In this document: positions 1 through 14,245 of the stretch, in pieces
Numbering within the stretch: the stretch's first letter is position 1
Layout: each line of letters opens with the position of its first letter
Origin: Roseibium sp. HPY-6
Lineage (GTDB): Bacteria > Pseudomonadota > Alphaproteobacteria > Rhizobiales > Stappiaceae
Direction: 5' to 3'
NCBI RefSeq assembly: GCF_040530035.1
Contig: NZ_JBEWCD010000003.1
Location: 372,001 to 436,000, forward strand
Length of the DNA stretch: 64,000 nt
The notes under the pieces: model-generated
The model's input: only the letters and a program-made list of their open reading frames with translations
The model's database searches: none
What the model was told of the DNA's origin: nothing
Program-made: the position numbers and the translations under genes

Positions 1-1316
1 GCGCGGCGCTCCAGGATCGGCATGAGCGACTTTGCCAGCGCGGCATCGCTCTCTTCCATCTGAAGAGTGGCCGTCAGCTGTCCTTCGAAACTGCGTGCGA
101 CGGATCGCATTTCCCCGTCATCCTTAACGGTGACGATCACACCGGCAGGCCCGAACACCTCTTCCTGCAGGTCGCGGTTTCCGACAAAGGTCTCGGCACT
201 GGCCCGGTAGACGGCCGGCGTTGCTCCCCTGTTGTCGCTGACTGAGCTGAGCAGCGTTTCGACACCGGCAACGGCTCCGATCCGGCCTTGCCCGTCCCGG
301 CAGGCGCTCGCGATCCCGTCGGTCAGCATGGTTTGCGCGCCAACGGCCTGGAGTGCCTTTACGGCGCTGGTCGCAAAGCTGTCGGCCTTCTCTCCGGCAT
401 GAACGACAACAACGCCCGGATTGGTGCAGAACTGGCCGACGCCCATCGTAAGAGACCCCGCCCAGCCTTCGCCGATCGCCTCCGCACGTGCTTCCAAAGC
501 TCCCGGTAATAAGAAAACCGGATTGACGCTACCGAGTTCACCGAAAAACGGAATCGGTTCCGGCCGCGCGGCGCAGAGATCGAAAAGCGCACGTCCGCCC
601 CTGAGTGAACCGGTAAAACCAACCGCCTTGATAAGCGGATGCTGGACGACGCCCTGACCGAGCGCAAGTGTCGTGCCCTGCAGGAAACCGAATGTCCCTG
701 CCGGGAGGCCGCATGCCTTGACCGCAGCATCGATGGCCTGGGCAACCAGCTCGCCCGTCCCAGGGTGCGCCGGATGGCCCTTAACCACGATCGGACAACC
801 GGCAGCGAAGGCCGATGCCGTGTCGCCGCCTGCCGTGGAAAACGCCAGCGGAAAGTTGGACGCGCCGAAAACGGCAACCGGTCCGATCGGTCTCTGCACC
901 AGAAAAAGTTCCGGGCGCGGCAGGGGTTGACGATCCGGCAACGCGCTGTCGTGGCGCCGGTCCAGATAGTCGCCCTTCAGGATCGTTTCCGCGAACAGAC
1001 GCAGCTGTCCGGTCGTGCGGCCGCGCTCTCCGTCAAGACGTGCTGCGGGCAGAGCGGTTTCCTGACCACCAATCTCGGTCAGGTCCGCACCCCGCGCCTC
1101 GATTTCGTCTGCGATCTTTTTCAGAAAAGCGGCTCTTTCCTGATCGCTCGTGGTGCTGAATATTTCGAAAGCATCGTCCGCAGCGCGGCACGCCCGATCG
1201 ACATCGTCTACCGACGCTTCGGAAAAACTGTTTGGAGCGCCGTCGGCCGGCTGCGACTGAAACGTCGCGTCGCCTGAGACCCATTCCCCGTTGATGAGAT
1301 TCTTGCCCGTTAGCAT
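1..1316 (-). CDS. 2-oxoglutarate semialdehyde (2,5-dioxovalerate) dehydrogenase, 3' end missing
   Basis: The reading frame is open from an ATG at 1316 to the window edge (438 codons), so the C-terminal part, probably 80-90 residues, lies outside. It is an aldehyde dehydrogenase superfamily protein that would oxidise 2-oxoglutarate semialdehyde to 2-oxoglutarate with NAD(P). Visible family residues are the cofactor-pocket segment GASNFPLAFS (151-160), VVKGHPAHP with Lys179, the general base in FFGELGSVNP (Glu260) and the nucleophile in GQFCTNPG (Cys297). The GHPAHP and GQFCTNPG forms are typical of the ketoglutaric-semialdehyde subgroup rather than of betaine or succinate-semialdehyde enzymes. 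It starts 12 bases after the XylX-like dehydratase, whose product would be its substrate. The family call is firm; the substrate is inferred from subgroup and context. Confidence 0.85.
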   Translation of the reverse strand, partial: MLTGKNLINGEWVSGDATFQSQPADGAPNSFSEASVDDVDRACRAADDAFEIFSTTSDQERAAFLKKIADEIEARGADLTEIGGQETALPAARLDGERGRTTGQLRLFAETILKGDYLDRRHDSALPDRQPLPRPELFLVQRPIGPVAVFGASNFPLAFSTAGGDTASAFAAGCPIVVKGHPAHPGTGELVAQAIDAAVKACGLPAGTFGFLQGTTLALGQGVVQHPLIKAVGFTGSLRGGRALFDLCAARPEPIPFFGELGSVNPVFLLPGALEARAEAIGEGWAGSLTMGVGQFCTNPGVVVVHAGEKADSFATSAVKALQAVGAQTMLTDGIASACRDGQGRIGAVAGVETLLSSVSDNRGATPAVYRASAETFVGNRDLQEEVFGPAGVIVTVKDDGEMRSVARSFEGQLTATLQMEESDAALAKSLMPILERR

Positions 1317-1328
1317 CCCGCTTGTCCC

Positions 1329-2483
1329 TTAGATTAGATTGCGTTTTGACAGATTGCGCATGAGCGCGCTTGTCCCGAATGTCCACTCCGCGCACTCGGT
1401 CGAGAGCCGGACTGTATTGCGCAAAGTGCCAAGCTGCGCGCATGAAATACTGACGATATCGCCGAGCTTGTGCGTGAACCCCTCGCCGGGAGCGTCGCGA
1501 TCCTCGGTCGGCGCGAAAAGCGTCCCCAGGAACAGCATGAAGCCGTCGGGATACTGGTGGTGCCGCCCGCGCGTCTGGGCGACAAGGTCCTGCGGATCGC
1601 GGCTGATCTCCGTCATGGTGGAATGACCGGCGAGTTCAAATCCGTCCGTCCCCGATACGGTCAGATCCAGTTCAAGCCGGCGCACATCGTCCATCGAGAA
1701 AGTGTCGTCGAAAAGCCTGATCGCGGGACCGAACGACGTGGACGCGTTGTTGTCTTTGGCCTTGCCCAGCAACAACGCGGAGCGGCCTTCCACATCCCGC
1801 AGGTTGACATCGTTGCCAAGCGTCGCCCCCTTGACGGTCCCGGAACTATCGACCGCCAGAACCACTTCCGGTTCCGGATTGTTCCAGTTCGAAATGGGAT
1901 GAAGGCCGACGGATGAGCCAAAGCCGACGGCGGACATCGGCTGTGATTTGGTGAACACCTCGGCATCCGGTCCGATGCCGACTTCCAGATACTGCGACCA
2001 GACATCCTCGGCGATCAGGGCATCCTTGAGCTGAGCCGCTTTCTCGGACCCCGGCGTAACGGATCTGAGGCTGTCGCCGATAATGGCCGTGCAACGTTCG
2101 CGGATCTTCTCGGCTTTTGCCGGATCGCCTTTTGCCTGCTCCTCGATCACCCGCTCAAGCATGGAAAATGCGAAAGTGACACCACAGGCCTTGATCGCCT
2201 GAAGGTCCGCAGGGGCGAGCAGCCAGGGCAGGGCCGGATTGGGGCTTTCAACGGAATTGGCCGCAATTTCGTCCACTGTGCCGATGGCGACGCCGTCCGC
2301 ACCGGTGATCCAGCCTGCGGGATCTTCCAATTCGAGCAGGTCCCGCATCGTGGACACGGCAGCGCAGGTAATGTCGATCAGAGTGTCGCCGCGCAACACG
2401 CAAAGACTGGGCCCGGACAGATCCGGCCGCCAGGCCCGGAACACAAAAACTCCGTCGCCCGGCAGATTAAGTTGAGAAGTCAT
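1329..2483 (-). CDS. fumarylacetoacetase-family 2-keto-3-deoxy-pentonate dehydratase (XylX-like)
   Basis: 384 residues, the length of Caulobacter XylX, a fumarylacetoacetate-hydrolase-fold enzyme that dehydrates 2-keto-3-deoxy-D-xylonate to 2-oxoglutarate semialdehyde. The C-terminal half carries the fold's acidic metal site (PEPEVVLAVDSSG, LGNDVNLRDVEGRS) and the sequence SWDN-like region HPISNWNNPEPE. The start codon overlaps the stop of the upstream hydrolase gene as ATGA (2480-2483), and the semialdehyde dehydrogenase follows at once, which is the order expected for the last two steps of a non-phosphorylating pentose (Weimberg-type) route. The family is clear; the exact keto-deoxy acid is not shown by the sequence and could be a xylonate, arabonate or a related sugar acid. 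Confidence 0.8.
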   Translation of the reverse strand: MTSQLNLPGDGVFVFRAWRPDLSGPSLCVLRGDTLIDITCAAVSTMRDLLELEDPAGWITGADGVAIGTVDEIAANSVESPNPALPWLLAPADLQAIKACGVTFAFSMLERVIEEQAKGDPAKAEKIRERCTAIIGDSLRSVTPGSEKAAQLKDALIAEDVWSQYLEVGIGPDAEVFTKSQPMSAVGFGSSVGLHPISNWNNPEPEVVLAVDSSGTVKGATLGNDVNLRDVEGRSALLLGKAKDNNASTSFGPAIRLFDDTFSMDDVRRLELDLTVSGTDGFELAGHSTMTEISRDPQDLVAQTRGRHHQYPDGFMLFLGTLFAPTEDRDAPGEGFTHKLGDIVSISCAQLGTLRNTVRLSTECAEWTFGTSALMRNLSKRNLI

Positions 2484-3316
2484 GATGATATCGTGTCCAC
2501 GTCTGCAGGTTGGCTGGACTTGTTTAACCAGACGCCCAGTGCATCAATCAAGGGGCTCTTTTGCGAATTCAGATCGCTGAGGATGCTCAGGTGGTGCGCC
2601 CCGCGGACAATTATGTGTCCCGCACCGGCAGTTTCAGCCATCGCCAGTGACTGCTTCTTGAACTCGTCCGTTTCGTCACCGCCGACCACGCAAAGAAGGG
2701 GCACATCGATTGATGCACCAATCAGAGTGTGTGATCGAATCTCTTGCTCCGTCAGCCCGATCTCGTCCTGCAGGAAAGATTTGGCAACAGGTGCAAGATC
2801 GTAGACGCCGCTGATCCCGACAATACCGGCGATCCGGTCAGTAAGTCCGGCTTTGAGAGCTGTGCTCACAGCCAAATGCGCACCAGCGGAGTGTCCGACG
2901 AACAAGAACCGGATGGGGTCCGGATAAAACGCAGCAAGCTTGGCAAGGGCTGCAACCGCGTCCGCAACGAGATCGTCCATCCGAAATTCCGGCATGAGGC
3001 GGTACTCGACATTTGCGCATGTATTCCCAAACGCAGACAATCCGGTCAGCACGCACCGATGATCTTCCGCAGTGAGGCTGCGCCAGTAACCTCCATGAAT
3101 GAAAACCGGGACGACATTGCCTTGACCGGCGCCGCACTTCGCCAGTTCAATCCACTGCCTTTCGTGAGGGCCATAAGCAAGCCTTTCAAAAGACAACGAC
3201 TTGCCGACGGTGCTGCTGGCCTCCGCCCGCCACCGGAGCCAGTCATCAAAATCATCCAGGACATCCGAGAACCGGAACTGAGGGTCCCAGGTTCTGCGTT
3301 CGTCGAAGTCAGTCAT
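2480..3316 (-). CDS. alpha/beta hydrolase, arylformamidase (kynurenine formamidase)-like
   Basis: 278 residues with an alpha/beta-hydrolase fold of the esterase/kynurenine-formamidase type. The oxyanion-hole motif HGGYW is at 74-78, the nucleophile elbow GHSAGAH puts the serine at 143, the acid is probably Asp214 in VVGGDETDEF, and the histidine is in RGAHHLSI (241-242). The ATG at 3316 is preferred over one 24 bases upstream because it overlaps the upstream stop as ATGA, as at other junctions in this operon. No tryptophan-degradation gene is nearby, so a true kynurenine formamidase role is doubtful. Opening a lactone or cleaving a carboxylic ester or formamide of the imported compound fits the context better. 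Confidence 0.75.
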   Translation of the reverse strand: MTDFDERRTWDPQFRFSDVLDDFDDWLRWRAEASSTVGKSLSFERLAYGPHERQWIELAKCGAGQGNVVPVFIHGGYWRSLTAEDHRCVLTGLSAFGNTCANVEYRLMPEFRMDDLVADAVAALAKLAAFYPDPIRFLFVGHSAGAHLAVSTALKAGLTDRIAGIVGISGVYDLAPVAKSFLQDEIGLTEQEIRSHTLIGASIDVPLLCVVGGDETDEFKKQSLAMAETAGAGHIIVRGAHHLSILSDLNSQKSPLIDALGVWLNKSSQPADVDTISS

Positions 3317-3951
3317 GCAGGTGTCTCCGAATGCGAACAAAGTAGATCAGCTGCCTTGGCCAGCTCTGATCGAAGCTCGTTTCCTGTCACTTCACGGGTA
3401 CCAGGCAACAAGACGCCCACAATGCAACGCTTGCTCCGGCGTTCCGAAACGCAGGAGATCACGGCACGCTGTGCCGCCACCGCCTCGAATTGATGAGCAA
3501 GGGAAATCTCGGCAAGCCCGTCGGGATCGAAGGCAGGCGGCATCAGCACACTGTAATGCCGCTGAGGGGTTATGAACGAGATGCCGCGACCACTGGAAAA
3601 CGGACCGGTCGCACATGTCCCATCGCTCAAGACGGCGAGGAAGGCCGTCAGACGAGTCGATTGGCGCAGCTGGATGAGCACGGGCTCAGCTACAAGCGCA
3701 AATTCACCGAACCCGAGCGCGGACAACCCGGTTGCGAGCGCCGAGGGACCGCGCAGATAGGCCCCTCCGGTCGACCGGCTCAAGAGACCTTCGCTCTCCG
3801 CGATCGCAACGGCTCTATACCCCGACGTCGTGGCCAGTCCCACTGTGCGGGCAAGCGGGAGAGGCCCGGAAACAATCTTCTGAAGCGGTTGCTCAACCAA
3901 CCCTTCGAAGATATCGATCGCCTTGTCGTAGGGCGTATCGGTCTTATCCAT
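3313..3951 (-). CDS. short IclR-like putative regulator or ligand-binding protein
   Basis: 212 residues. Residues about 8-80 resemble an IclR-type winged helix: a leading helix (DKAIDIFEGLVEQPLQKIV), a recognition-helix-like stretch (TTSGYRAVAIAESEGLL) and a wing (GAYLRGPSALATGL). The remaining 130 residues are shorter than the usual IclR effector domain and show no motif I recognise. It overlaps the upstream fusion regulator by 8 bases (3944-3951) and the downstream hydrolase by 4, so it is translated within the operon. It may be a second regulator, a partner of the fusion regulator, or a repurposed small-molecule sensor. Its function is not established. Confidence 0.6.
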   Translation of the reverse strand: MDKTDTPYDKAIDIFEGLVEQPLQKIVSGPLPLARTVGLATTSGYRAVAIAESEGLLSRSTGGAYLRGPSALATGLSALGFGEFALVAEPVLIQLRQSTRLTAFLAVLSDGTCATGPFSSGRGISFITPQRHYSVLMPPAFDPDGLAEISLAHQFEAVAAQRAVISCVSERRSKRCIVGVLLPGTREVTGNELRSELAKAADLLCSHSETPA

Positions 3952-5305
3952 GTCGTGACCCTTGCTTGTTCACACCTTCCGACCGAAGTACGCGCAGGCT
4001 TGGGCCCTGGGACAGAATAGCAGTGTCTGGCAGATCCCAACCGACATGCCGTTCCGCCCAGGTATCAGCGCGCACGCTTGCCGTTTCCATACCACGGGGC
4101 AGAACGATCGGAACCGGCACTTCCACCCTGCGCGGTACGGACTTGCCGGAGAGGATATCCAACGCCACCTCGACGACCCTGGCACCCATCGCTGCCGGGT
4201 AGTCCAGCGCGACAAAGGGAACCTTGTGATAGAGCGCAAGCTTGTACATCTGGTTCAAATCGCCGCCGGTATGGGCAGGGATGCGAAGCTCGTTTTCAAT
4301 AAAGAACTTTAGCGACCCGACGCCTTGCAGTCCGCTGTCGCACCAAACGCCGTCTGGAGCACCACCTCCCTGGTCGAACAGACGCTGGATGGCTTTGCGG
4401 CCACCTTCTTCGGTCCAGTCGGTGTAGGTGACTGCCTCGATCTGAATACCTGGAAACTCCGAAAATCCGGAAAAGGCTGCCGACTGGCGCCGCATCGCCG
4501 GGCTTGCGCCTTCCAGGCCGGACAGCATCCAGATACGGCCGGTACCCTTGAGTCTTTCCGCCAGCCAGAGGGCGCTTATACGCCCTATGCGCCGGTCGGA
4601 GGCCGTCACGAAGGAAACCAGCGAAGACGGATCGCGCGGACGTCGGTCGACCGCGACAACCGGAAGTCCAGCATCCGCAACGTCCTTCAGCTTGCGGTCC
4701 AAGAAAGGCGAATGGGCGTTGGTCGTGCTGACGAGAAGCAGATCAATTCCGCTTCCGACAAGCTCGTCTATCTGGTTCACCTGCGTCCCGGCGTCGTCTC
4801 CGGCCTCCCGGACAAGAAAGGCCTCAATCCGATCCGCATGCAGACGCTCCGCGTAGCGCATGCTTTCAAACATCGCCTTGCGCCATTCATTTGAGAGGGA
4901 CGCGTTTGCAAAGCCAATACGGAACGGAGCAGACCCTTTGTAGGCATCCGTGGAGACCGTTTCAAAGAGGCGCGCATCCCATTCGGTGCTCGCATGATGA
5001 GCATCCACCGCGGTTCTGTCGAGTGGCAGCGTTGTGGTGCTGCCCGGCAGCGCAGCGTCAATGGCTTCGAGTGGCACAAAGGCAAGTTCAGCGGCCTTTG
5101 GTCCAAGTTTCAAGGAGCCGTGATCAACCCTTACCAGCCAGCCCCGCAGTGTCAGCGCCCTCAGAAGCCCGAACCCGGTCGACCGGCCCATGCCGACTTC
5201 GCTCAGGATCTCGTGCGTGGGTCTTGGGCTGTTCCGATGATCAAAACAGCTCAAGATCCGGGCAATACGGACGAGGTTGGATCTTGGAGTTTCGCCGGTT
5301 GGCAC
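3944..5305 (-). CDS. transcription regulator: IclR-like winged helix fused to a periplasmic-binding-protein domain
   Basis: 453 residues from a GTG at 5305, with a GAGG ribosome site just upstream and no in-frame ATG nearby. Residues 8-80 look like an IclR helix-turn-helix and wing (LVRIARILSCFD, RSTGFGLLRALTLRGWL, GSLKLGPKAAELA). Residues about 110-430 form a type I periplasmic binding protein domain that aligns almost without gaps to the transporter binding protein encoded at 8802-9929. Shared stretches include IGF-NAS-SN-WR-AM, FVTASD--GRISA-WLAE, GVW-DSGLQG-GS and HTGGD-N-MY. There is no signal peptide, so it should sense the same or a derived ligand in the cytoplasm and control this operon. 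LacI regulators pair such a domain with a different DNA-binding fold, so this architecture is unusual. Confidence 0.85.
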   Translation of the reverse strand: MPTGETPRSNLVRIARILSCFDHRNSPRPTHEILSEVGMGRSTGFGLLRALTLRGWLVRVDHGSLKLGPKAAELAFVPLEAIDAALPGSTTTLPLDRTAVDAHHASTEWDARLFETVSTDAYKGSAPFRIGFANASLSNEWRKAMFESMRYAERLHADRIEAFLVREAGDDAGTQVNQIDELVGSGIDLLLVSTTNAHSPFLDRKLKDVADAGLPVVAVDRRPRDPSSLVSFVTASDRRIGRISALWLAERLKGTGRIWMLSGLEGASPAMRRQSAAFSGFSEFPGIQIEAVTYTDWTEEGGRKAIQRLFDQGGGAPDGVWCDSGLQGVGSLKFFIENELRIPAHTGGDLNQMYKLALYHKVPFVALDYPAAMGARVVEVALDILSGKSVPRRVEVPVPIVLPRGMETASVRADTWAERHVGWDLPDTAILSQGPSLRVLRSEGVNKQGSRHG

Positions 5306-5326: not shown

Positions 5327-6286
5327 TCAACGTCGTGACCGGCGCATGTAAACAGCCGCCGCCAGCAAGATCAAACTTCCCTTGATCACGAGCTGCAACT
5401 CGATCGAAAGCCCAAGGATGACAACAATGTTAAACAGCGAGACAAGCACGAGCGTTGCCAGCAGAACACCCGGAACACTTCCCTTGCCGCCACTCAGCGC
5501 AGCGCCACCGATAACGGCAGCGGCGATCGAGTCGAGTTCATAACCACGCCCGGTCCAGTTGTCGACGATCCCGACATAGCCGACCAGGACGAGCCCGGCC
5601 AATCCGGCAAGGACACCGGAAATCATGAAGGCGCTGACCACAAGCAGACGGGTCGGAGCTCCTGTCATGTAGGCCGCTTCGGGATTGTCACCGTAGAGTT
5701 TCAGACGTCGCCCATAAACGGTGTATTCGAGCAGCCAGTGCGCGGCGAAGGCAACAATGGCCAGCAGCATCAGCGCAACGGGGATCCCGAACAGGTCGCC
5801 TGTCGCAAGCCAACGGAATGTTTCCGGCAAGGTTCCACCCGGGGCACCGCCCGTATAGGCGAAGCGGACCCCCTGCAGCACGATCATCGTTGCAAGCGTT
5901 GCCAGAAAAGGCGTCACGCCCCGATAGGCGACAAGATATCCGTTGATGCCGCCGATGAGCGCGCCGAGCAGGATACCAACCGCAAAGATCACGACGGTGT
6001 TGTCGTTCAATCCAATGGAAAGAACCGCGACAGTGGCCATTATGGAGGCGACCGACAGATCCAGCCCGCGAACGATGATGACGATCATCTGCCCGATCAC
6101 GACAAACCCGAGCGGCGCTGCCTGAAGCAGAATGTCGCTCAGGTTTGCCGGGCTCAGGAATCTGGGTGACAGGACCGTCGTGACCGCCCAGATGACGACC
6201 AGAAAGCCGGTCAGCAGGAGCAACTCCCGGTTTTGCTGTGCCCGGACCGTGCCGCTGTCTTTTCCAAAAAGCGCCGTCATGCTCAT
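5327..6286 (-). CDS. sugar ABC transporter permease (CUT2/RbsC type), second of the pair
   Basis: 319 residues with 8-10 hydrophobic segments and the BPD_transp_2 pattern of ribose-type permeases, including GLDLSVASIMA, YGDNPEAAYMTG and the C-terminal GGAALSGGKGSVPGVLLATLV loop that meets the ATPase. The ATG at 6286 overlaps the stop of the neighbouring permease gene as ATGA, so the longer open frame upstream is not used. It would sit in the inner membrane and form the channel together with the product of 6283-7227. Substrate is unknown; CUT2 systems usually take up monosaccharides. Confidence 0.9.
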   Translation of the reverse strand: MSMTALFGKDSGTVRAQQNRELLLLTGFLVVIWAVTTVLSPRFLSPANLSDILLQAAPLGFVVIGQMIVIIVRGLDLSVASIMATVAVLSIGLNDNTVVIFAVGILLGALIGGINGYLVAYRGVTPFLATLATMIVLQGVRFAYTGGAPGGTLPETFRWLATGDLFGIPVALMLLAIVAFAAHWLLEYTVYGRRLKLYGDNPEAAYMTGAPTRLLVVSAFMISGVLAGLAGLVLVGYVGIVDNWTGRGYELDSIAAAVIGGAALSGGKGSVPGVLLATLVLVSLFNIVVILGLSIELQLVIKGSLILLAAAVYMRRSRR

Positions 6287-7227
6287 TTGCTTTTTCTCCC
6301 GACGAAGATGGAGACGGCGGCGATGATGATCAGTCCTTCCGCAATCCACTGGTAGAAGCTGGAAACGTTCATGAAATTCAGGACATTGGCGAGCAGGGCC
6401 AACACAATCACGGCAAGAAGGGTTCCCAGAACGCCGCCGCGGCCACCGGCAAGCAGCGTCCCGCCGACAATGACCGGCGTGATTGACTTGAGATCGAACC
6501 CGACACCGGCTCTTGGGTCGCCGACGCCGAAACGTCCGCAGATATAGATCGCCGTGACCGCCGCCAGAAGTCCCGATAGCGCATAGACGATCAGCTTGGT
6601 CGATTTGACCGGGACACCTGAAATCGATGCCGCCTGTTCATTGTCGCCGATGGCATAGATCCTGAGGCCAAGCCTGGTTTTCCAAAGCAGGAAGCCGGCC
6701 AGAAGGTAAAGCATAAGCGTGAAGATGGTCCCATATGGGATCATGCCGATGCGCCCGTAGACCAGATCCTCGAAGAACAGGGGAACCGATCCTGTCGGCT
6801 GGCGCGTTATCAGCAGCGCCAGGCCTGACAGGATGGTTGAGGTTCCCAGGGTCACGATCAGCGGATGGATACCCACAAAGGTGACGATGCTGCCATTGAT
6901 CGCGCCGATGAAGACGCCAAGGCTGAGAACAATGGCGATCGCGGCTGCAAAGCTGGCGGGATCTTCCCCCGCGATCGAGGCAAAGACAACGGTCAGAAGG
7001 CCGAGCGCACCGGCATAGGACAGGTCGATCCCGCCGGAAAGAATGACGATGGTCTGCGCAAGGGCGACAAGCGCAAGAGCAACCATCTGATCCTGCACGT
7101 TGGCAAAATTGAGCGGGGTGGCGAAGCGGTCCGAACTGTACATCCCGACAAGGACAACAAGCCCGATCAGAGCGAGCACGACCAGATGCACCGGTTGTGT
7201 ACGCGTCATGCGAATTACATCATCCAT
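6283..7227 (-). CDS. sugar ABC transporter permease (CUT2/RbsC type), first of the pair
   Basis: 314 residues, strongly hydrophobic, same family as the permease that follows it. Family landmarks are GIDLSYAGALGL, IYAIGDNEQAASISGVP and the loop ITPVIVGGTLLAGGRGGVLGTLLA. The ATG at 7227 overlaps the ATPase gene end (7220) by 8 bases, which suggests translational coupling; an in-frame ATG 18 bases downstream is possible. Two different permeases imply a heterodimeric channel. Confidence 0.9.
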   Translation of the reverse strand: MDDVIRMTRTQPVHLVVLALIGLVVLVGMYSSDRFATPLNFANVQDQMVALALVALAQTIVILSGGIDLSYAGALGLLTVVFASIAGEDPASFAAAIAIVLSLGVFIGAINGSIVTFVGIHPLIVTLGTSTILSGLALLITRQPTGSVPLFFEDLVYGRIGMIPYGTIFTLMLYLLAGFLLWKTRLGLRIYAIGDNEQAASISGVPVKSTKLIVYALSGLLAAVTAIYICGRFGVGDPRAGVGFDLKSITPVIVGGTLLAGGRGGVLGTLLAVIVLALLANVLNFMNVSSFYQWIAEGLIIIAAVSIFVGRKSK

Positions 7228-8743
7228 TGGAAGTTACCCCGTGATGGCTGGGTGTCTCGGCTGCCGCGACACTCATGATCGCCTCTTCCGATATCTCCTG
7301 AGACGTCAACTCGGCCGCCAACTCTCCATCCCGCATGACGAAGACACGGTCACAAAGTCCCACGATTTCAATGAGTTCAGACGAAATGGCGAGGATCGCC
7401 ATGCCTTCATCCGCCAAGTGCCGGAGCATCTTGTAGATCTCTGATTTGGCGCCGACATCAACCCCGCGCGTTGGCTCATCGAGGATGAGCACTTTAGGCC
7501 TGTTCTCCAGAAGGCGCGCAATCAGAACCTTTTGCTGGTTCCCCCCCGAAAGCGCGGAGATCGGCAGACCGACATTGTCGACTACAACGCCAAAACGCTC
7601 CTTCATGACACGCGCCCGGGCTTCCTCGTGGCCAATGGCAACACGCGCCGGATGAACCCCGTGTCCAGGCGTTGTCGCGGCAAAATTGCGCGCAACGGAA
7701 CTGTTGAGGAACAACCCGTCATCCTTCCGGCTTTCGGTGAGCATGAGAATGCCGGCATCGATGCTGTTGGATGGCGAGCGGTAATCCAGCGGCTCGCCTT
7801 CTATCAGGACGGTACCCTTCGCGCCTTCCGCGCCGTATATGGCAAGCGCAAGTTCCGTTCGCCCGGAACCGACCAATCCCGCCAGGCCAAGGATTTCACC
7901 TGCCCTGACTTCGAAGCTGACCGGAGCCAGGCCATCGGCAACGATCAGATCCCTGACATCAAGCATGGGTGCACCGGTCTCACCGTCACGTGGCTTTTGC
8001 GGGAAGAGGTTACCCAGTTCGCGTCCGACCATCGCGGCAATGACCGTATCATGCGTGTATTCGGAAACGGGCCCCTGGGATGTGACCACGCCGTCCTTTA
8101 TGACGGTGATGTCCGTGCAGATCTCGAAGATCTCGTCCAGACGGTGTGACACATAAACGATGCCGAGGCCCCGTGAACGCAACTCATTGATGATTTTGAA
8201 GAGATGCCGGGTCTCGTTTTGAGACAGGACTGCCGTCGGCTCGTCCAGTATCAGAACCCTGGCATCGGAACGAAGCGCTTTTGCTATTTCGACCATTTGC
8301 TTGTCGGCGACGCTCAGATCGTCGACGAGGGATCTCGCGGAGAGATGGATGCCGAGTTTTTCCAGCAATGTCTCCGTCTGGACGACAAGTGCTTTTCGAT
8401 CAATCAACCCAAACCGGGTCAGTGGCTCGGCATCGAGAAAAATGTTCTCCGCAACACTTAGCGCTCCTATGGTGGAGAACTCCTGATGCACGACGGCAAT
8501 TCCGGCATCGAGGCTCGCTCTCGGGCTCGACCAGTCTTCCTGTTTTCCGCTGAATTCGACGTGTCCGGATGTTGGATGATAGAGGCCTGTCAGCAGTTTG
8601 ATGAGGGTCGATTTTCCCGCACCATTCTCGCCGCAAAGCGCGACGGATGCGCCCGAATGGACCTCGAATTCAATTTCTTTCAGAACCTCGTTCGGTCCGA
8701 ACGACTTTGACAGCGCGCGCGCGGCCAGTACCGGCTCAGACAT
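7220..8743 (-). CDS. sugar ABC transporter ATP-binding protein with two ATPase domains (RbsA/MglA type)
   Basis: 507 residues from the ATG at 8743, with GGAGGAG eight bases upstream; the longer open frame reaching 8896 would run into the preceding gene's end. The first half has a full Walker A (GENGAGKST), signature-like LSVADKQMVEIAKAL and Walker B ILDEPTAVL. The second half has the degenerate Walker A GLVGSGRTELALAIYG, signature LSGGNQQKVLIARLL and ILDEPTRGVDVG. A normal domain followed by a degenerate one is the hallmark of CUT2 sugar importers. It energises uptake through the two permeases encoded directly downstream. Confidence 0.93.
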   Translation of the reverse strand: MSEPVLAARALSKSFGPNEVLKEIEFEVHSGASVALCGENGAGKSTLIKLLTGLYHPTSGHVEFSGKQEDWSSPRASLDAGIAVVHQEFSTIGALSVAENIFLDAEPLTRFGLIDRKALVVQTETLLEKLGIHLSARSLVDDLSVADKQMVEIAKALRSDARVLILDEPTAVLSQNETRHLFKIINELRSRGLGIVYVSHRLDEIFEICTDITVIKDGVVTSQGPVSEYTHDTVIAAMVGRELGNLFPQKPRDGETGAPMLDVRDLIVADGLAPVSFEVRAGEILGLAGLVGSGRTELALAIYGAEGAKGTVLIEGEPLDYRSPSNSIDAGILMLTESRKDDGLFLNSSVARNFAATTPGHGVHPARVAIGHEEARARVMKERFGVVVDNVGLPISALSGGNQQKVLIARLLENRPKVLILDEPTRGVDVGAKSEIYKMLRHLADEGMAILAISSELIEIVGLCDRVFVMRDGELAAELTSQEISEEAIMSVAAAETPSHHGVTSNG

Positions 8744-8801: not shown

Positions 8802-9929
8802 TTATTTTGGATAGTTTGCAGTGAAAGTTGCCGGATCGTAGTCCGCGCCGACGCCGGAGGACATGATGACCGATCCCGGCTTATCCATAAGAGCATAGTC
8901 GGCGGTAAAGACGTCAGCTTTCACAGAGGGAGTCTCATGACCTTCCGACACGACCACCTGCTGGTTCACCTCGATCCGGCGCGGAATGCCCTTGCCGTCA
9001 AGCACGTCAAACAGGACTTCGAACCCTTCGGCACCCATTGCGGGCGGGTAATCGATACCGATCATCGGAACGTCGTTCTGCACGGAGAGCTGATACATCG
9101 CGTTGAAGTCGCCACCGGTGTGTGGCGGGATCTTTCCGGCTTCGTATCCGGCCGCAAGAAAGGCCTCGATGGAACCGGAGCCCTGCAGACCGCTGTCTGC
9201 CCACACGCCTGCAATCTCGTCACCATATTTCTGGATCAGTGCCGACATGATGGTCTTGCCGTTCGCGGGCGACCAGGAGGTGTATTGCGTTTCCAGAACC
9301 TCGATTCCCGGGAACTGGTTGAACACCTCCATCGCGGCCTTGATCCGGTTTTCCGCTGGCGAGGCACCGGCCAGCCCGCCAAGCATGACAACCTTGCCTT
9401 CGCCGCCGAGCTTTTCCGCGAGCCACTGAGCAGAAATGCGGCCCAACGCCTGGTCGGATGCCGTGACGAAGGTAATGTAGTTTTCGTCGGACGAGACCTG
9501 GCGGTCCACGAGAACCACCGGGATCCCCTGACGCTTGGCCCGGCGCACCGCCGGATCAAGAGCTTCAGCGGTTGCCGGACTGATCAACAGAATATCGACA
9601 CCCTGGGCAATGAGATCCTGAACATCGGCGGCCTGTTTGGACGGATCGTCATTTGCGTCCGTGATAATGAAACGCTCGATCTTGTCGGCGTGCCGTTCCG
9701 CTGCCGCTTCGATCCCGTGCAGCATGGCAACACGCCACGGATTTGAAATCGATGCATTGGAGAACCCGATGACATAGGGTCCGTCCTTCTTGAATTCCGC
9801 GGCATCGAATATGTCCACGGATCCTGGGTTCCAAAGGAACGTTCTCGGAACGCCGTCGTAGTCGGCAAGAGCCGTGCCTGCGGACAGGCAAAGGGTTGCG
9901 GCCGCAGCCACAATTGTTCTGATACGCAT
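8802..9929 (-). CDS. sugar ABC transporter periplasmic substrate-binding protein
   Basis: 375 residues. The ATG at 9929 has GGAGGAG upstream and begins a clean signal peptide (MRIRTIV, then AAAATLCLSAGTALA with probable cleavage after residue 22); the ATG 12 bases upstream is less likely. The mature part is a type I (ribose/xylose-like) periplasmic binding protein: IGFSNASISNPWR opens the first lobe, DGADILLI-type strands follow, and ADSGLQGSGS and HTGGDFNAMY lie near the cleft. It would capture the substrate for the importer encoded downstream. The cytoplasmic regulator at 3944-5305 contains a close copy of this domain, pointing to the same ligand class. Ligand unknown. Confidence 0.93.
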   Translation of the reverse strand: MRIRTIVAAAATLCLSAGTALADYDGVPRTFLWNPGSVDIFDAAEFKKDGPYVIGFSNASISNPWRVAMLHGIEAAAERHADKIERFIITDANDDPSKQAADVQDLIAQGVDILLISPATAEALDPAVRRAKRQGIPVVLVDRQVSSDENYITFVTASDQALGRISAQWLAEKLGGEGKVVMLGGLAGASPAENRIKAAMEVFNQFPGIEVLETQYTSWSPANGKTIMSALIQKYGDEIAGVWADSGLQGSGSIEAFLAAGYEAGKIPPHTGGDFNAMYQLSVQNDVPMIGIDYPPAMGAEGFEVLFDVLDGKGIPRRIEVNQQVVVSEGHETPSVKADVFTADYALMDKPGSVIMSSGVGADYDPATFTANYPK

Positions 9930-9977: not shown

Positions 9978-11264
9978 TTATTCCGCGGCCAGGATCAGTC
10001 CCGGAGAACGCGGGTCGCTCTGTCGGGGGTCCTTCCAGGCGCTGCCGTCCTTCATGATCATGGCCAGGTTGTCCTGCTTTTGAAGCAGTGAGACATCCTG
10101 AACGACATCCCCACGAACAAGCAGCAGATCCGCAAGGTAGCCTTCCTTGATCTGGCCGAGCTCACCGCTCCGGCCCATAAGCTCGGCACCGACATGGGTG
10201 GCACAGCGAAGCGCCTCGACCGGCGAGTAGCCAAAGTAGCGGACGAAATGCTCGATATCGCGAGCGTTCTGACCCATCGGCGTGACCGAGAACCCATAGT
10301 CGCCGCCGACGACCACACGGACCCCGCGTTTGCGGATTTCGTGATAAGTCGCGCAAGTCGCTTCGAATTTCCGGAACAAACCCATGCTTTCAGCAACTTC
10401 CCGGGTCAGGCCGACAACGTCGCCTTCACGCGTGCTATTGTGAACAAGCCCGAAGGCCGGACCGACGAAGATGCGGTCCTTGGCGCCTTCAAGCATGTCG
10501 AGCGCTTCCTCATCCGCAAAGTCGCAGTGATAGATGCAGTCGACACCATGACGCACTGCCATCTTCACGCTCTTGGACGATCTGGCATGGGCGGCCACCA
10601 TCTTGTCGAAGGCATGCGCAACCTTGACGAACGCTGCCAGCTCCTCGTCTTCCGTTGGGGTGATTTCCGCCCGCGCATGGCTGACGAACTCGTCGCCGGA
10701 AATATTGATCTTCATGATATCGACACCGTCGCGCACGCATTCGCGGGCAACGCGCCGCATTTCGTCCGGCCCGTCTGCAACCAGACCAAAGCTTTCCTGG
10801 TAGATGTGCCGCTTGCGCTCGTCACCGAGCCCCGCTGTCGTTGTCACTTCAGGACTGCCGGCCATCATACGCGGTCCATCGATCAGACCCTCGTTGATGG
10901 CATCCCTCGCCGTCACACCGAGCATGGGCTTTGCGGAGGCCGCTTCGAAAATAGACGTGAAACCGTGGCTCAAAAGAAGTCTCAGGTTCTGCGCCGTTAG
11001 CAGCATATGCCGTTCCGGACATAGCTGACCCAACTCGGTCGGCTCCGAAATTCCTGTAAAGCTCGGGTGGCAATGGCCTTCGACCATGCCCGGCATGAGA
11101 GTCATGCCGGTCCCGTCAATCAGATTGTCAGACAAGCCGGAAGGCACGTCCGTGCCTTCGATAACCTTTGCAATACGGTTGCCTTCGACCACAACGGTGC
11201 CCGGAACGGCTGCGTCCGCGACACCGTTCCAAATCATCGCACCCTGGATAACGGTTTGTGTCAT
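9978..11264 (-). CDS. metal-dependent amidohydrolase (imidazolonepropionase-like family)
   Basis: 428 residues. The ATG at 11264 is preferred to a GTG 18 bases upstream because GGGAGG precedes it at the right distance. It is an amidohydrolase-superfamily TIM barrel: an N-terminal composite beta-sandwich strand (VVVEGNRIAKV), the metal motif PGMVEGHCHPSF, KINISGDEF with a likely bridging lysine, further histidines in VAAHARSSK and IYHCDFADEE, and an aspartate in VVVGGDYGFSV, then the C-terminal return GYLADLLLVRGD. There is no signal peptide, so it acts in the cytoplasm. It is the first gene of the transporter operon and probably hydrolyses a C-N bond or lactone in the imported compound. The actual substrate cannot be read from sequence. 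Confidence 0.85.
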   Translation of the reverse strand: MTQTVIQGAMIWNGVADAAVPGTVVVEGNRIAKVIEGTDVPSGLSDNLIDGTGMTLMPGMVEGHCHPSFTGISEPTELGQLCPERHMLLTAQNLRLLLSHGFTSIFEAASAKPMLGVTARDAINEGLIDGPRMMAGSPEVTTTAGLGDERKRHIYQESFGLVADGPDEMRRVARECVRDGVDIMKINISGDEFVSHARAEITPTEDEELAAFVKVAHAFDKMVAAHARSSKSVKMAVRHGVDCIYHCDFADEEALDMLEGAKDRIFVGPAFGLVHNSTREGDVVGLTREVAESMGLFRKFEATCATYHEIRKRGVRVVVGGDYGFSVTPMGQNARDIEHFVRYFGYSPVEALRCATHVGAELMGRSGELGQIKEGYLADLLLVRGDVVQDVSLLQKQDNLAMIMKDGSAWKDPRQSDPRSPGLILAAE

Positions 11265-11336: not shown

Positions 11337-11391
11337 GACAACAAGACAGGTTGTCGCAGCATTTGCCCGTATTTTGGATTATCCCGAAATA
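11337..11391. promoter_or_regulatory. two inverted repeats upstream of the transport operon, operator candidates
   Basis: The first is GACAAC-N7-GTTGTC (11337-11355), perfect in six-base arms. The second is an imperfect 22-base palindrome at 11370-11391, with eight of eleven pairs matching, centred on TATTTTGG / CCCGAAATA. Both lie in the 277-base gap upstream of the amidohydrolase, where the operon promoter must be. They are the natural candidates for binding by the IclR-like regulators encoded downstream. Binding is inferred, and I cannot fix the -35/-10 boxes. Confidence 0.45.
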
Positions 11392-11832: not shown

Positions 11833-13303
11833 AACCATCCTCAAGTTCCAGATCGACAATATGACCGTAGGGACCGATCAGGCCGTCGCCTTCCTTGTAT
11901 TTGCGCAGCATGTCCTTGTTCACTTCCAGAAGACCGAGCGCGAACATTTCGACGTCATTTGTCGGGCGCGTCTGATCTAGGGGCGAGGCCAGCGGTTCAT
12001 TGGGACGAGCCGGCCGCACCAGCCTGGGTGTCACCACAATAACAAGATCGGTTTCGCGCTTTTGAAAGCTGGTCGACCGGAACAACACGCCGAGTACCGG
12101 CACCTGGCCAAGCCAGGGAAGCTGACTGATGTCGCGGGTATCGACGTTCTCCAGAAGACCCGCAATTGAAAAGCTCTGGCCGTCCTTGAGTTCGATCACC
12201 GCTTCCGCGCGGCGTGACGTAAAACCGGGATTCCCGTTTACGTTGATCGAGTTGTCGATATCACTGACCTCGGTCATCACACGCAAGTTGATACGGCTGG
12301 CGTCGAGGACTGTCGGAACAAATTCCAGACGAACGCCGAAGGGACGATAGTCCGTCGAGGATGCGACACCGCCGGAATTGGACACTGCGGTCTGGATGGG
12401 CACCTCACCGCCAACATGAAAACGGGCCGTCTCACCGCTGATCGTGGTGAGGTTCGGCTGCGCCAGCCGCCGTACCAGACCCTTGCCTTCCAGCGCGTCG
12501 ATGATGGTGTCAATGCGAAGTCCGGCCGTTTCCAGCACCTTTCCGATCAGCGTTCCGAAGGGAAGGGCGCCCTGCTGCGCCACGCTGGCACCGGACCCCA
12601 GGAGTGCGACGAGACCACCGTCACCGTCGGTGCCGACCTGAACGCGCGAACCGCTGGTGCTGATATTGCCATTGTCGGACCGGCCGACCCAGTTGACCCC
12701 GAGATCCCGTCCGATCGATCGGCTCGCCTCCAGCACCCTGACTTCGAGGGCCACCTGTTGCGGACTGCGGACACTGACCGCATTGATCACCGGATCTTCC
12801 GAAAACTGCTGGGCAACTTCCAGAACCTTGGCCAGTTCCACGGCATTGTTGACGGCCCCGCTCAAACGGATCTTGTTGCCGACATTGGAAACGGACACTT
12901 GAGACGTCGGTGCGACAGCCCGGATGGCGCGCACCACGTCGTCGAAATTAAGCTGCACACGCACTTCAATAACGCCAAGAAGTGTCTTTGAGGCATCGTA
13001 GATCGAAATGTTAGTCAGGCCGGGCGCTTTGCCCTGAATGTAAAGAACCTGTTCGGACAACGGCACGATGTCCGCCGTTTCCGGATTACCGACAACGAGA
13101 TCTGAAAACTTGCTGTTCGTCCTTACGGTCCGGGTTGTGCCGGGCTGCATTGTGACCCTTGAAACGCTGCCGCCGTTCACGACAAGCGTCATTTCATCAA
13201 CTTGCGCGCTGGATTCTTGAGCGCCTGCAAGGCCAAGCACGATCACGCAGATCACTACTGTCAAAATGGACGATATCTTCACGTCGTGCCTCGTCTTTGG
13301 CAT
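11813..13303 (-). CDS. cpaC: CpaC/RcpA-type secretin of the Flp/Tad pilus
   Basis: 496 residues from ATG 13303; a TTG six bases upstream is also open and neither has a strong ribosome site. A signal peptide (SSILTVVICVIVLGLAGA) precedes an N-terminal pilus-associated domain (MTLVVNGGSVSRVTMQPG), a BON-like segment (VRAIRAVAPTSQVSVSNVG) and the secretin core with VALEVRVLEASRSIGRDLGV and the closing VPVLGVLFRSTSFQKRETDLVIVVTPRLV. It forms the outer-membrane channel for Flp pilus export. The usual neighbours cpaB, cpaD, cpaE and cpaF are absent from the window, so the pilus locus is split in this genome. Confidence 0.9.
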   Translation of the reverse strand: MPKTRHDVKISSILTVVICVIVLGLAGAQESSAQVDEMTLVVNGGSVSRVTMQPGTTRTVRTNSKFSDLVVGNPETADIVPLSEQVLYIQGKAPGLTNISIYDASKTLLGVIEVRVQLNFDDVVRAIRAVAPTSQVSVSNVGNKIRLSGAVNNAVELAKVLEVAQQFSEDPVINAVSVRSPQQVALEVRVLEASRSIGRDLGVNWVGRSDNGNISTSGSRVQVGTDGDGGLVALLGSGASVAQQGALPFGTLIGKVLETAGLRIDTIIDALEGKGLVRRLAQPNLTTISGETARFHVGGEVPIQTAVSNSGGVASSTDYRPFGVRLEFVPTVLDASRINLRVMTEVSDIDNSINVNGNPGFTSRRAEAVIELKDGQSFSIAGLLENVDTRDISQLPWLGQVPVLGVLFRSTSFQKRETDLVIVVTPRLVRPARPNEPLASPLDQTRPTNDVEMFALGLLEVNKDMLRKYKEGDGLIGPYGHIVDLELEDGYVYSKN

Positions 13304-13609
13304 TCGCAAAATTTAAGGTCACGCAAGGTCATTTTTATTTCCACATCTCAGCACAAATGCCGAAGATATTGAAATTGCCCCCGCCCTACTGACCTCAATA
13401 CTAAGATGCTGACGATTAACGGCTCGTGAAAAAAATCTGAAAACTGAAAACTATCATTCCGAAACTATATTAAGACATCGGTTGTCAGTTTTCTTACGTT
13501 CAAAGTCTTTGTAACAAGTATCAATATTCAACCGGCATACACCATTAAAGTGCGTCTGTCGGCCGATCATTTTGGGTAAATTCGTCCGGCTTTCCGGATG
13601 ACAAATCGG
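13304..13609. other. AT-rich intergenic region upstream of cpaC
   Basis: 306 bases without a gene, visibly richer in A and T than the surroundings. It must hold the minus-strand promoter for cpaC, but no single -35/-10 pair stands out. A short direct repeat of CTGAAAA lies near 13436-13450. Confidence 0.5.
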
Positions 13610-14245
13610 TCAGTTGGCAGAGCCTTGGCGTTTTTCGTATCTGACCTTGCCATCAGAGGTGACGACGCGACGGAAAAGCGCAGACCCTTGAGCTTCTTCC
13701 GGCTGGCGTGCGAACGTGACCCGCGGAATTGTGCGGGCGCTTTCAAACCGGTTGGCCGCCTGCGCCGACAAAGCTGGAGAAAACATCGCCGCGGCGGTCG
13801 TGGAATGGAAGAAATCGATGTCTCTGTCGATCTTCGTTTTCAACTTGTCGATCGGTATATCGGAATCGCCTCTTTCGATCCGCATCAGCCTGACGCCGGA
13901 CTGGATCTGGCTGAGGCGCTGGTCGATCTTTGAAAGCCGGTTCTGCACACCCGTGTTCATCAGGCTGACACTTCCGGAGATCCGCTTTTCGAATTCCTGA
14001 AGGCCGCTGAGTTGCTGTCGGATCTGATTGAGTTCCGTCGTGGCGGACCAGGTGAAAAAGAGACCAACGAACAACAGCACCGTTACCCCGACCGAAACCG
14101 CGTTGAGGGCCATCAGCACGCGGACATTGCGCTGCAGGAACGCCGTCAGCGGAGAGGTGGCAGGCGCAGGTTTGGTGCCTTTTTCAGAAGCGGCACCGCC
14201 GGTTCCGTGAGCAGCTGCGTTTCCGGTGTTCCCGTTGGCGATCAT
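13610..14245 (-). CDS. single-pass membrane protein with coiled coil, Tad-locus associated
   Basis: 211 residues from ATG 14245; a TTG at 14257 that overlaps the upstream stop as TTGA is an alternative start. A Gly/Ala/Pro-rich cytoplasmic stretch of about 40 residues is followed by one membrane helix (ALNAVSVGVTVLLFVGLFFTW) and then a heptad-like region (ELNQIRQQLSGLQEFEKRI to QNRLSKIDQRLSQIQSGV) suggesting a coiled coil outside. The C-terminus is basic. I do not recognise a named family. Its position directly after the TPR lipoprotein and upstream of cpaC suggests a part in pilus assembly. Confidence 0.65.
   Translation of the reverse strand: MIANGNTGNAAAHGTGGAASEKGTKPAPATSPLTAFLQRNVRVLMALNAVSVGVTVLLFVGLFFTWSATTELNQIRQQLSGLQEFEKRISGSVSLMNTGVQNRLSKIDQRLSQIQSGVRLMRIERGDSDIPIDKLKTKIDRDIDFFHSTTAAAMFSPALSAQAANRFESARTIPRVTFARQPEEAQGSALFRRVVTSDGKVRYEKRQGSAN

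Follow-up and report, generated by a model that had tools for sequence, protein, structure and literature searches.

The coupling of a winged helix to a binding-protein sensor is already known as a general idea. SgrR of Escherichia coli is a cytoplasmic protein with a winged helix and a solute-binding-protein domain, the latter with a type II solute-binding fold and the former from a winged-helix family other than the one discussed here. The LacI/GalR regulators use a type I binding-protein fold as a cytoplasmic sensor, and the same fold is found in the CUT2 binding proteins (YtfQ and RbsB, as well as the sensor domain BT1754), which are exported or face the periplasm. In AraR of Bacillus subtilis, a GntR winged helix is attached to a core that has homologues among LacI regulators and sugar-binding proteins, and the protein responds to the sugar handled by the genes that it controls (PMC4218819).

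The regulator described here, encoded in a window of 64,000 nucleotides (the whole stretch of DNA analysed) from Roseibium sp. HPY-6, resembles each of these systems in part. Like AraR, it joins a non-LacI winged helix to a LacI/sugar-binding-protein type of core. However, its winged helix is of the IclR type, and it comes with a partner protein, whereas AraR is a homodimer whose accessible description (PMC4218819) speaks of no second protein with a winged helix. It shares the type I fold with LacI/GalR proteins but not their helix-turn-helix, and its best Pfam match is Peripla_BP_4 rather than Peripla_BP_1. The CUT2 binding proteins are its nearest sequence matches, yet a winged helix occupies the position at which they have a signal peptide. 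Canonical IclR proteins have their winged helix in common with both the regulator and its partner, and the partner also has the linker and the beginning of the effector domain; in the regulator, however, a binding-protein domain stands in place of the effector domain, and in the partner the effector domain is cut short. The IclR winged helix joins the list of those coupled to binding-protein sensors. In the open literature, which covers few subscription journals, neither a binding-protein domain attached to an IclR winged helix nor a two-subunit IclR regulator was found described; in the accessible part of PMC6055005 both architecture words occur, in unrelated tables.

The regulator gene lies within a minus-strand operon, which comprises, in order of transcription and preceded by a putative control site, the following features (positions are those of the window):

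11337..11358, minus strand: candidate operator TGCGACA-N7-TTG with the dyad GACAAC-N7-GTTGTC (upstream comparison)
9978..11264 (open reading frame listed to 11282), minus strand: amidohydrolase, first gene of the operon (PF01979)
8802..9929 (open reading frame listed to 9941), minus strand: transport binding protein (Pfam; pocket comparison)
7220..8743 (open reading frame listed to 8896), minus strand: ABC transporter ATPase (Pfam; start by analogy with locus L010)
6283..7227, minus strand: ABC permease (Pfam)
5327..6286 (open reading frame listed to 6349), minus strand: ABC permease (Pfam; start inferred)
3944..5305, minus strand: regulator of 453 aa, IclR winged helix plus type I periplasmic-binding-protein domain (Pfam, BLASTP, 20 relatives)
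5066..5284, minus strand: winged-helix part of the regulator, residues 8-80 (PF09339 at residues 11-60)
4004..4978, minus strand: sensor (binding-protein) domain of the regulator, residues 110-434 (PF13407; Foldseek)
3313..3951, minus strand: partner, shortened IclR-type protein of 212 aa (start overlaps the regulator stop by 8 nt)
2480..3316 (open reading frame listed to 3340), minus strand: alpha/beta hydrolase (Pfam; start inferred)
1329..2483, minus strand: fumarylacetoacetate-hydrolase (FAH) family protein (Pfam)
1..1316, minus strand: gene cut by the window edge, which from its sequence we take to encode an aldehyde dehydrogenase (open frame; whole in loci L009 and L010)

This order is retained on two other Roseibium contigs (L009 and L010), the regulators of which are 91% and 80% identical to that of the window, and, from the amidohydrolase through the FAH protein, on a Peteryoungia desertarenae plasmid. 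The amidohydrolase was seen near only 14 of 21 regulators. It has 17 matches of solved structure at E<=1e-20, the best being a protein named trum-mut and others being named Xaa-Pro dipeptidase, arginine carboxypeptidase, imidazolonepropionase and ochratoxinase. In L009 (11990-15297), the aldehyde dehydrogenase is followed by convergent genes for what are presumably a short-chain dehydrogenase and an epimerase-like protein, and all three may belong to the same breakdown pathway.

The regulator and its shortened partner

The first-pass annotation described 3944-5305 as an IclR-like winged helix followed by a type I binding-protein domain, an architecture that both Pfam and BLASTP bear out; the domain is of the CUT2 type. 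The frame, for which no strand had been given, is on the minus strand and starts with GTG; since it is open in the window and in 20 relatives alike, a frameshift or assembly error can be excluded. HTH_IclR was found where a DNA-binding domain had been placed, near the N-terminus (residues 11-60), with a score barely above the Pfam cut-off (23.4 vs 22 bits), and a winged-helix profile of 16 regulators matched six canonical IclR proteins from the same genome over 70 columns (probability 96, E 2.8e-9). Pfam found neither a LacI-type helix-turn-helix nor a GntR winged helix in the regulators, and PF01614, the IclR effector domain, was absent from regulator and partner, a search of the whole genome placing it at eight sites, none of them at the regulator locus.

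The remainder of the protein is a binding-protein domain. Peripla_BP_4 covers residues 130-388 with 106 bits, while Peripla_BP_1, the Pfam family that includes the LacI sensors, reaches only 25.7 bits. The alignment with the binding protein of the operon is nearly gap-free, as had been reported (BLASTP: residues 109-434, 42% identical over 329 columns with 5 gaps, E 2e-94). In a comparison across the genome the operon's protein matches the regulator at 43%, above the general background of sugar-binding proteins, the six other matched places reaching 24-30%. The proposed extension of this likeness to the stretch before the first lobe holds in that this stretch lies within the start of the gap-free alignment, but taken alone it is weak, with 3 of the first 19 columns identical. 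By sequence, the nearest solved structures are the sugar-binding domains 2x7x, 2ioy and YtfQ. A structure prediction of modest confidence (mean pLDDT 61.5), used for fold assignment only, gave 2x7x, 2ioy and 5ocp, all sugar-binding proteins, as best Foldseek matches. As read from the sequences, the operon's transport protein has a signal peptide and the regulator, with the winged helix at its N-terminus, has none, in line with the cytoplasmic location suggested for it.

A second IclR-like gene, absent from the first-pass annotation, begins within the end of the regulator gene. This partner is encoded directly downstream of the regulator in 21 of 21 loci, and wherever the genes are separate its start overlaps the regulator stop by 1-14 nt (19/19 loci). 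On plasmids of Paracoccus pantotrophus and P. yeei (L017 and L018, each at 11995-13992), regulator and partner are a single 665-aa chain in which the winged helix and the binding-protein domain are followed by a second IclR winged helix; the window partner by itself matches this final portion only weakly (31% over 100 columns, E 2e-5). Alone, the window partner has no Pfam match, and scans of 15 single partners detected HTH_IclR in 10 and MarR_2 also in 10. However, a profile of these proteins (n=15) matched six canonical IclR proteins (L069-L074, i.e. six of the genome's eight IclR_C places, the two weakest being left out) over 106 columns (probability 98.4, E 8.9e-15), from the winged helix through the linker into the start of the effector domain. 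A structure prediction of the partner from three near sequences was discarded (pLDDT 36).

A search for the partner covered 136 genomes of one family and scored as many as 25 candidates in each. Strong matches (E<=4.6e-37) came up at six places, each of them a regulator locus. As the partner model contains five of these six, the informative result is that no strong match was found away from a regulator. Weaker matches (E>=2e-15) end by position 162 of the 184 in the model and lie within longer open frames.

Distribution of the regulators and origin of the sensor domain

Besides that of the window, 20 regulator loci were found: two in Roseibium, three on the Peteryoungia and the two Paracoccus plasmids, ten in samples of the order and class, and five in one family. 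HTH_IclR and Peripla_BP_4 were both detected at E<=0.1 in all 16 regulators of the first set and in all five found later. Such proteins are rare. Counting the genome of the window each time, they occur in 3/45 genomes of the genus (E<=1e-60), 3/87 of the family (E<=1e-70) and, at the same E-value with the four best candidates per genome scored, in 10/397 of the order sample and 2/385 of the class sample. Under these settings a phylum sample of 398 genomes contained none beyond the genome of the window. The families of genomes G165 and G171 (five genomes each) yielded no further one. Nine other places from the order and class samples were rejected, as they encode transport proteins. In the three annotated plasmid records (Peteryoungia and the two Paracoccus), the only name given is 'substrate-binding domain-containing protein', and regulators of this kind may therefore be miscounted as transport proteins.

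Essentially the whole mature binding protein has been incorporated into the regulator. Even its C-terminal tail is retained in the relatives that we call type B, which make up nine of the ten regulators from the order and class samples and the five from one family. Some further observations concern individual loci. Genome G1220 has two diverged regulator-partner pairs (L089 and L090, with 12/12 and 9/12 of the predicted pocket residues discussed below). In type B loci L049, L050, L052 and L088, as in the window, an alpha/beta hydrolase gene follows that of the partner, hinting at a place in the same pathway as the rest of the cluster. Locus L056 (6403-8862) has the same amidohydrolase (76%) and a binding protein with a 12/12 pocket, but none of the four candidates scored in its genome qualified as a regulator at E<=1e-70; frames read as transposase-like lie nearby, and the regulator may have been lost.

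Where the sensor domain came from was examined in trees of 16 regulator sensor domains, 15 transport proteins of the window's type and six of another type. The regulator domains form a single clade (99/99, and in 100% of 200 bootstrap trees) placed among the window-type transport proteins, and they still do so with the five later loci added (21 domains, 99/99). Separate origins for types A and B are thus unsupported, both being within this clade. The first-pass annotation had proposed that the operon gained a private sensor when a duplicate of its binding-protein gene was joined to a winged helix, and the 42% identity and fully matching pocket of the two proteins would be consistent with this. 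It is, however, difficult to reconcile with the single clade and with the outcome, under the model used, of forcing regulators and operon binding proteins together: for the Roseibium/Peteryoungia regulators and the operon kind of window-type binding proteins (4+5 rows) the log-likelihood fell by 102 and the AU p was 5e-49, and for a wider clade with seven type A regulators (7+5 rows) the AU p was 0.0013. Moreover, six of the loci placed in the tree (two Paracoccus, four type B) have a transport protein of the other type, with no more than 20-24% identity to the sensor domain of the window regulator, the Paracoccus regulator itself being 22% identical over 272 columns to the binding protein of its own cluster. 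The view that the sensor was copied from the binding protein encoded in the same operon was accordingly rejected, and we regard local duplication as scarcely tenable. As judged from these trees, the sensor goes back to a single old fusion, in which a relative of the transport protein of the window was joined to the winged helix; the descendants of this one event now lie beside transporters with binding proteins of differing type.

Predicted pocket and mode of action

Pockets were compared at twelve positions that we take to be the ligand contacts of ribose-binding protein, located on 2ioy. The sensor had been proposed to have the transporter's own specificity, and 12/12 of its predicted contacts are equal to those of the operon's transport protein vs 42% overall identity. 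Only one in 200,000 random sets of 12 columns was entirely identical between the two proteins, a figure to be read with the facts that pocket columns are more conserved than average and that four other transport proteins reach 11/12. Among the 15 window-type transport proteins, five score 12/12 (the window, L009, L010, L016 and L042), four score 11/12 (L019, L035, L038 and L039, 58-61% identical to the window's protein) and six score 8/12 (L023, L030, L040, L041, L043 and L044, 49-60% identical), while 2ioy itself scores 4/12. All five 12/12 proteins belong to operons with an amidohydrolase; near the other transport proteins compared, one was seen only in L065 (L041), as a 30% match, L019 being outside this comparison. 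Because the pocket is matched, a single binding screen could seek the ligand of both regulator and transport protein.

The first 16 regulators score 10-12 (10/12 in L053 and L054) and the later five 12, 12, 9, 9 and 9 (9/12 in L090-L092); these lower scores suggest, on sequence grounds, that ligands may differ within the family. Between the comparison of the first 16 and that of the later five, two pocket columns differ by one position, both inside one conserved block. The six other-type transport proteins, although no more than 26-29% identical overall to that of the window, have 8-9 of the 12 residues, which would fit a related ligand. Among the type B loci, the binding proteins beside the regulators of L047-L050, L088 and L089 are 51-56% identical to the Paracoccus one, and those of L047-L050 are only 28-29% identical to the window's, yet have 8-9 of the 12 pocket residues in common with it.

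The reading that we prefer, to which we would give a probability of roughly two in three, is that regulator and partner make up one cytoplasmic, two-subunit, ligand-responsive transcription factor that would sense a ligand of the transporter's kind and control the operon. In the larger subunit, an IclR winged helix would be followed by a complete sugar-type binding-protein domain where other IclR proteins have their effector domain. The smaller one would have its own IclR-type winged helix with a linker and only the start of the effector domain, and would thereby provide the other half of a DNA-binding pair of winged helices. The binding-protein domain would close in the cytoplasm on a small molecule of the kind imported by the adjoining ABC transporter, and, as happens in LacI or AraR, closure would shift the paired winged helices, altering their hold on an operator close to the -35 region. 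With ligand present, the genes for uptake and breakdown would be turned on, a ligand-relieved repressor being slightly likelier than an activator. The architecture, the single origin, the matching pocket and the pairing of the genes are established by the comparisons described here; that the two proteins form a complex and bind DNA, what the ligand is and in which direction regulation works are inferred. We are evenly divided on the broader proposal of an obligatory two-subunit family, in which an ancestral IclR-type factor would have split its jobs: in one subunit a transport binding protein would have replaced the effector domain, making this subunit the sensor, while the other would have retained the winged helix with a withered effector domain and provide the grip on DNA, and the resulting heteromeric DNA-binding unit would sometimes be encoded as a single chain (IclR helix-turn-helix, binding protein, IclR helix-turn-helix). 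A heteromeric bacterial regulator made of two unlike IclR-type subunits, as is suggested here, would be unusual.

The pairing of the two genes has to be weighed against the view that they encode separate regulators, merely co-transcribed and acting at different sites, each of which could self-dimerise through its own winged helix. Such independence is hard to square with frames that overlap in every locus with separate genes and are naturally fused in Paracoccus, with the absence of a detectable PF01614 domain from the window partner, or with the failure of 136 genomes to yield a strong partner match apart from a regulator, and we consider it unlikely. The nature of the ligand is another point of contention, as the sensor might bind an intracellular inducer or a product of breakdown instead of the imported compound: in the cytoplasm, where the regulator is located, the amidohydrolase may already have processed that compound, and some relatives keep the regulator beside a transporter with a binding protein of the other type. 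Nevertheless, all 12 contacts are equal between regulator and transport protein in the four loci that have both (the window, L009, L010 and L016), which makes this a doubtful possibility, if one worth bearing in mind. It is very improbable that the gene is decaying or that its product is a cytoplasmic binding protein without a part in regulation, as the marginal helix-turn-helix score in the window might suggest, given that the frame is intact and this domain detected in all 21 loci and that both pocket and partner are conserved.

A candidate operator

Upstream comparison yielded the candidate operator listed above, an element also found in L009 and L010, although of these two only L009 has the complete dyad. 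The more general pattern TGNGACA-N6/7-TTG was drawn by eye from upstream regions and the promoters of related genes are not independent, so its counts should be read accordingly. Across 1.14 Mb, both strands counted, there are 14 occurrences, seven of which are at promoters of regulator loci. Of the 16 promoters in the discovery set, seven have an exact copy (those of the window, L009, L010 and L049-L052), and the other nine (L016-L018, L046-L048 and L053-L055) lack it even with one mismatch. Among five hold-out promoters, from loci added later, four have it with at most one mismatch, one of them exactly, and L090 does not, against a background of 0.02 per 150-nt strand in a pool that includes these five loci. 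Six-base dyads in the upstream regions of 15 genes included no shared palindrome and were for the most part close to what shuffled sequence gives, and upstream 8-mers were shared by at most three rows (near-copies L048, L050 and L054 left out). In an alignment of the upstream regions of four type A operons, one row (L016) is divergent. In type B loci, the TTG part is often within a TTGAC that resembles a -35 box, in which case the putative element would overlap the promoter. The half-site of this candidate element resembles that of the IclR-family repressor KdgR.
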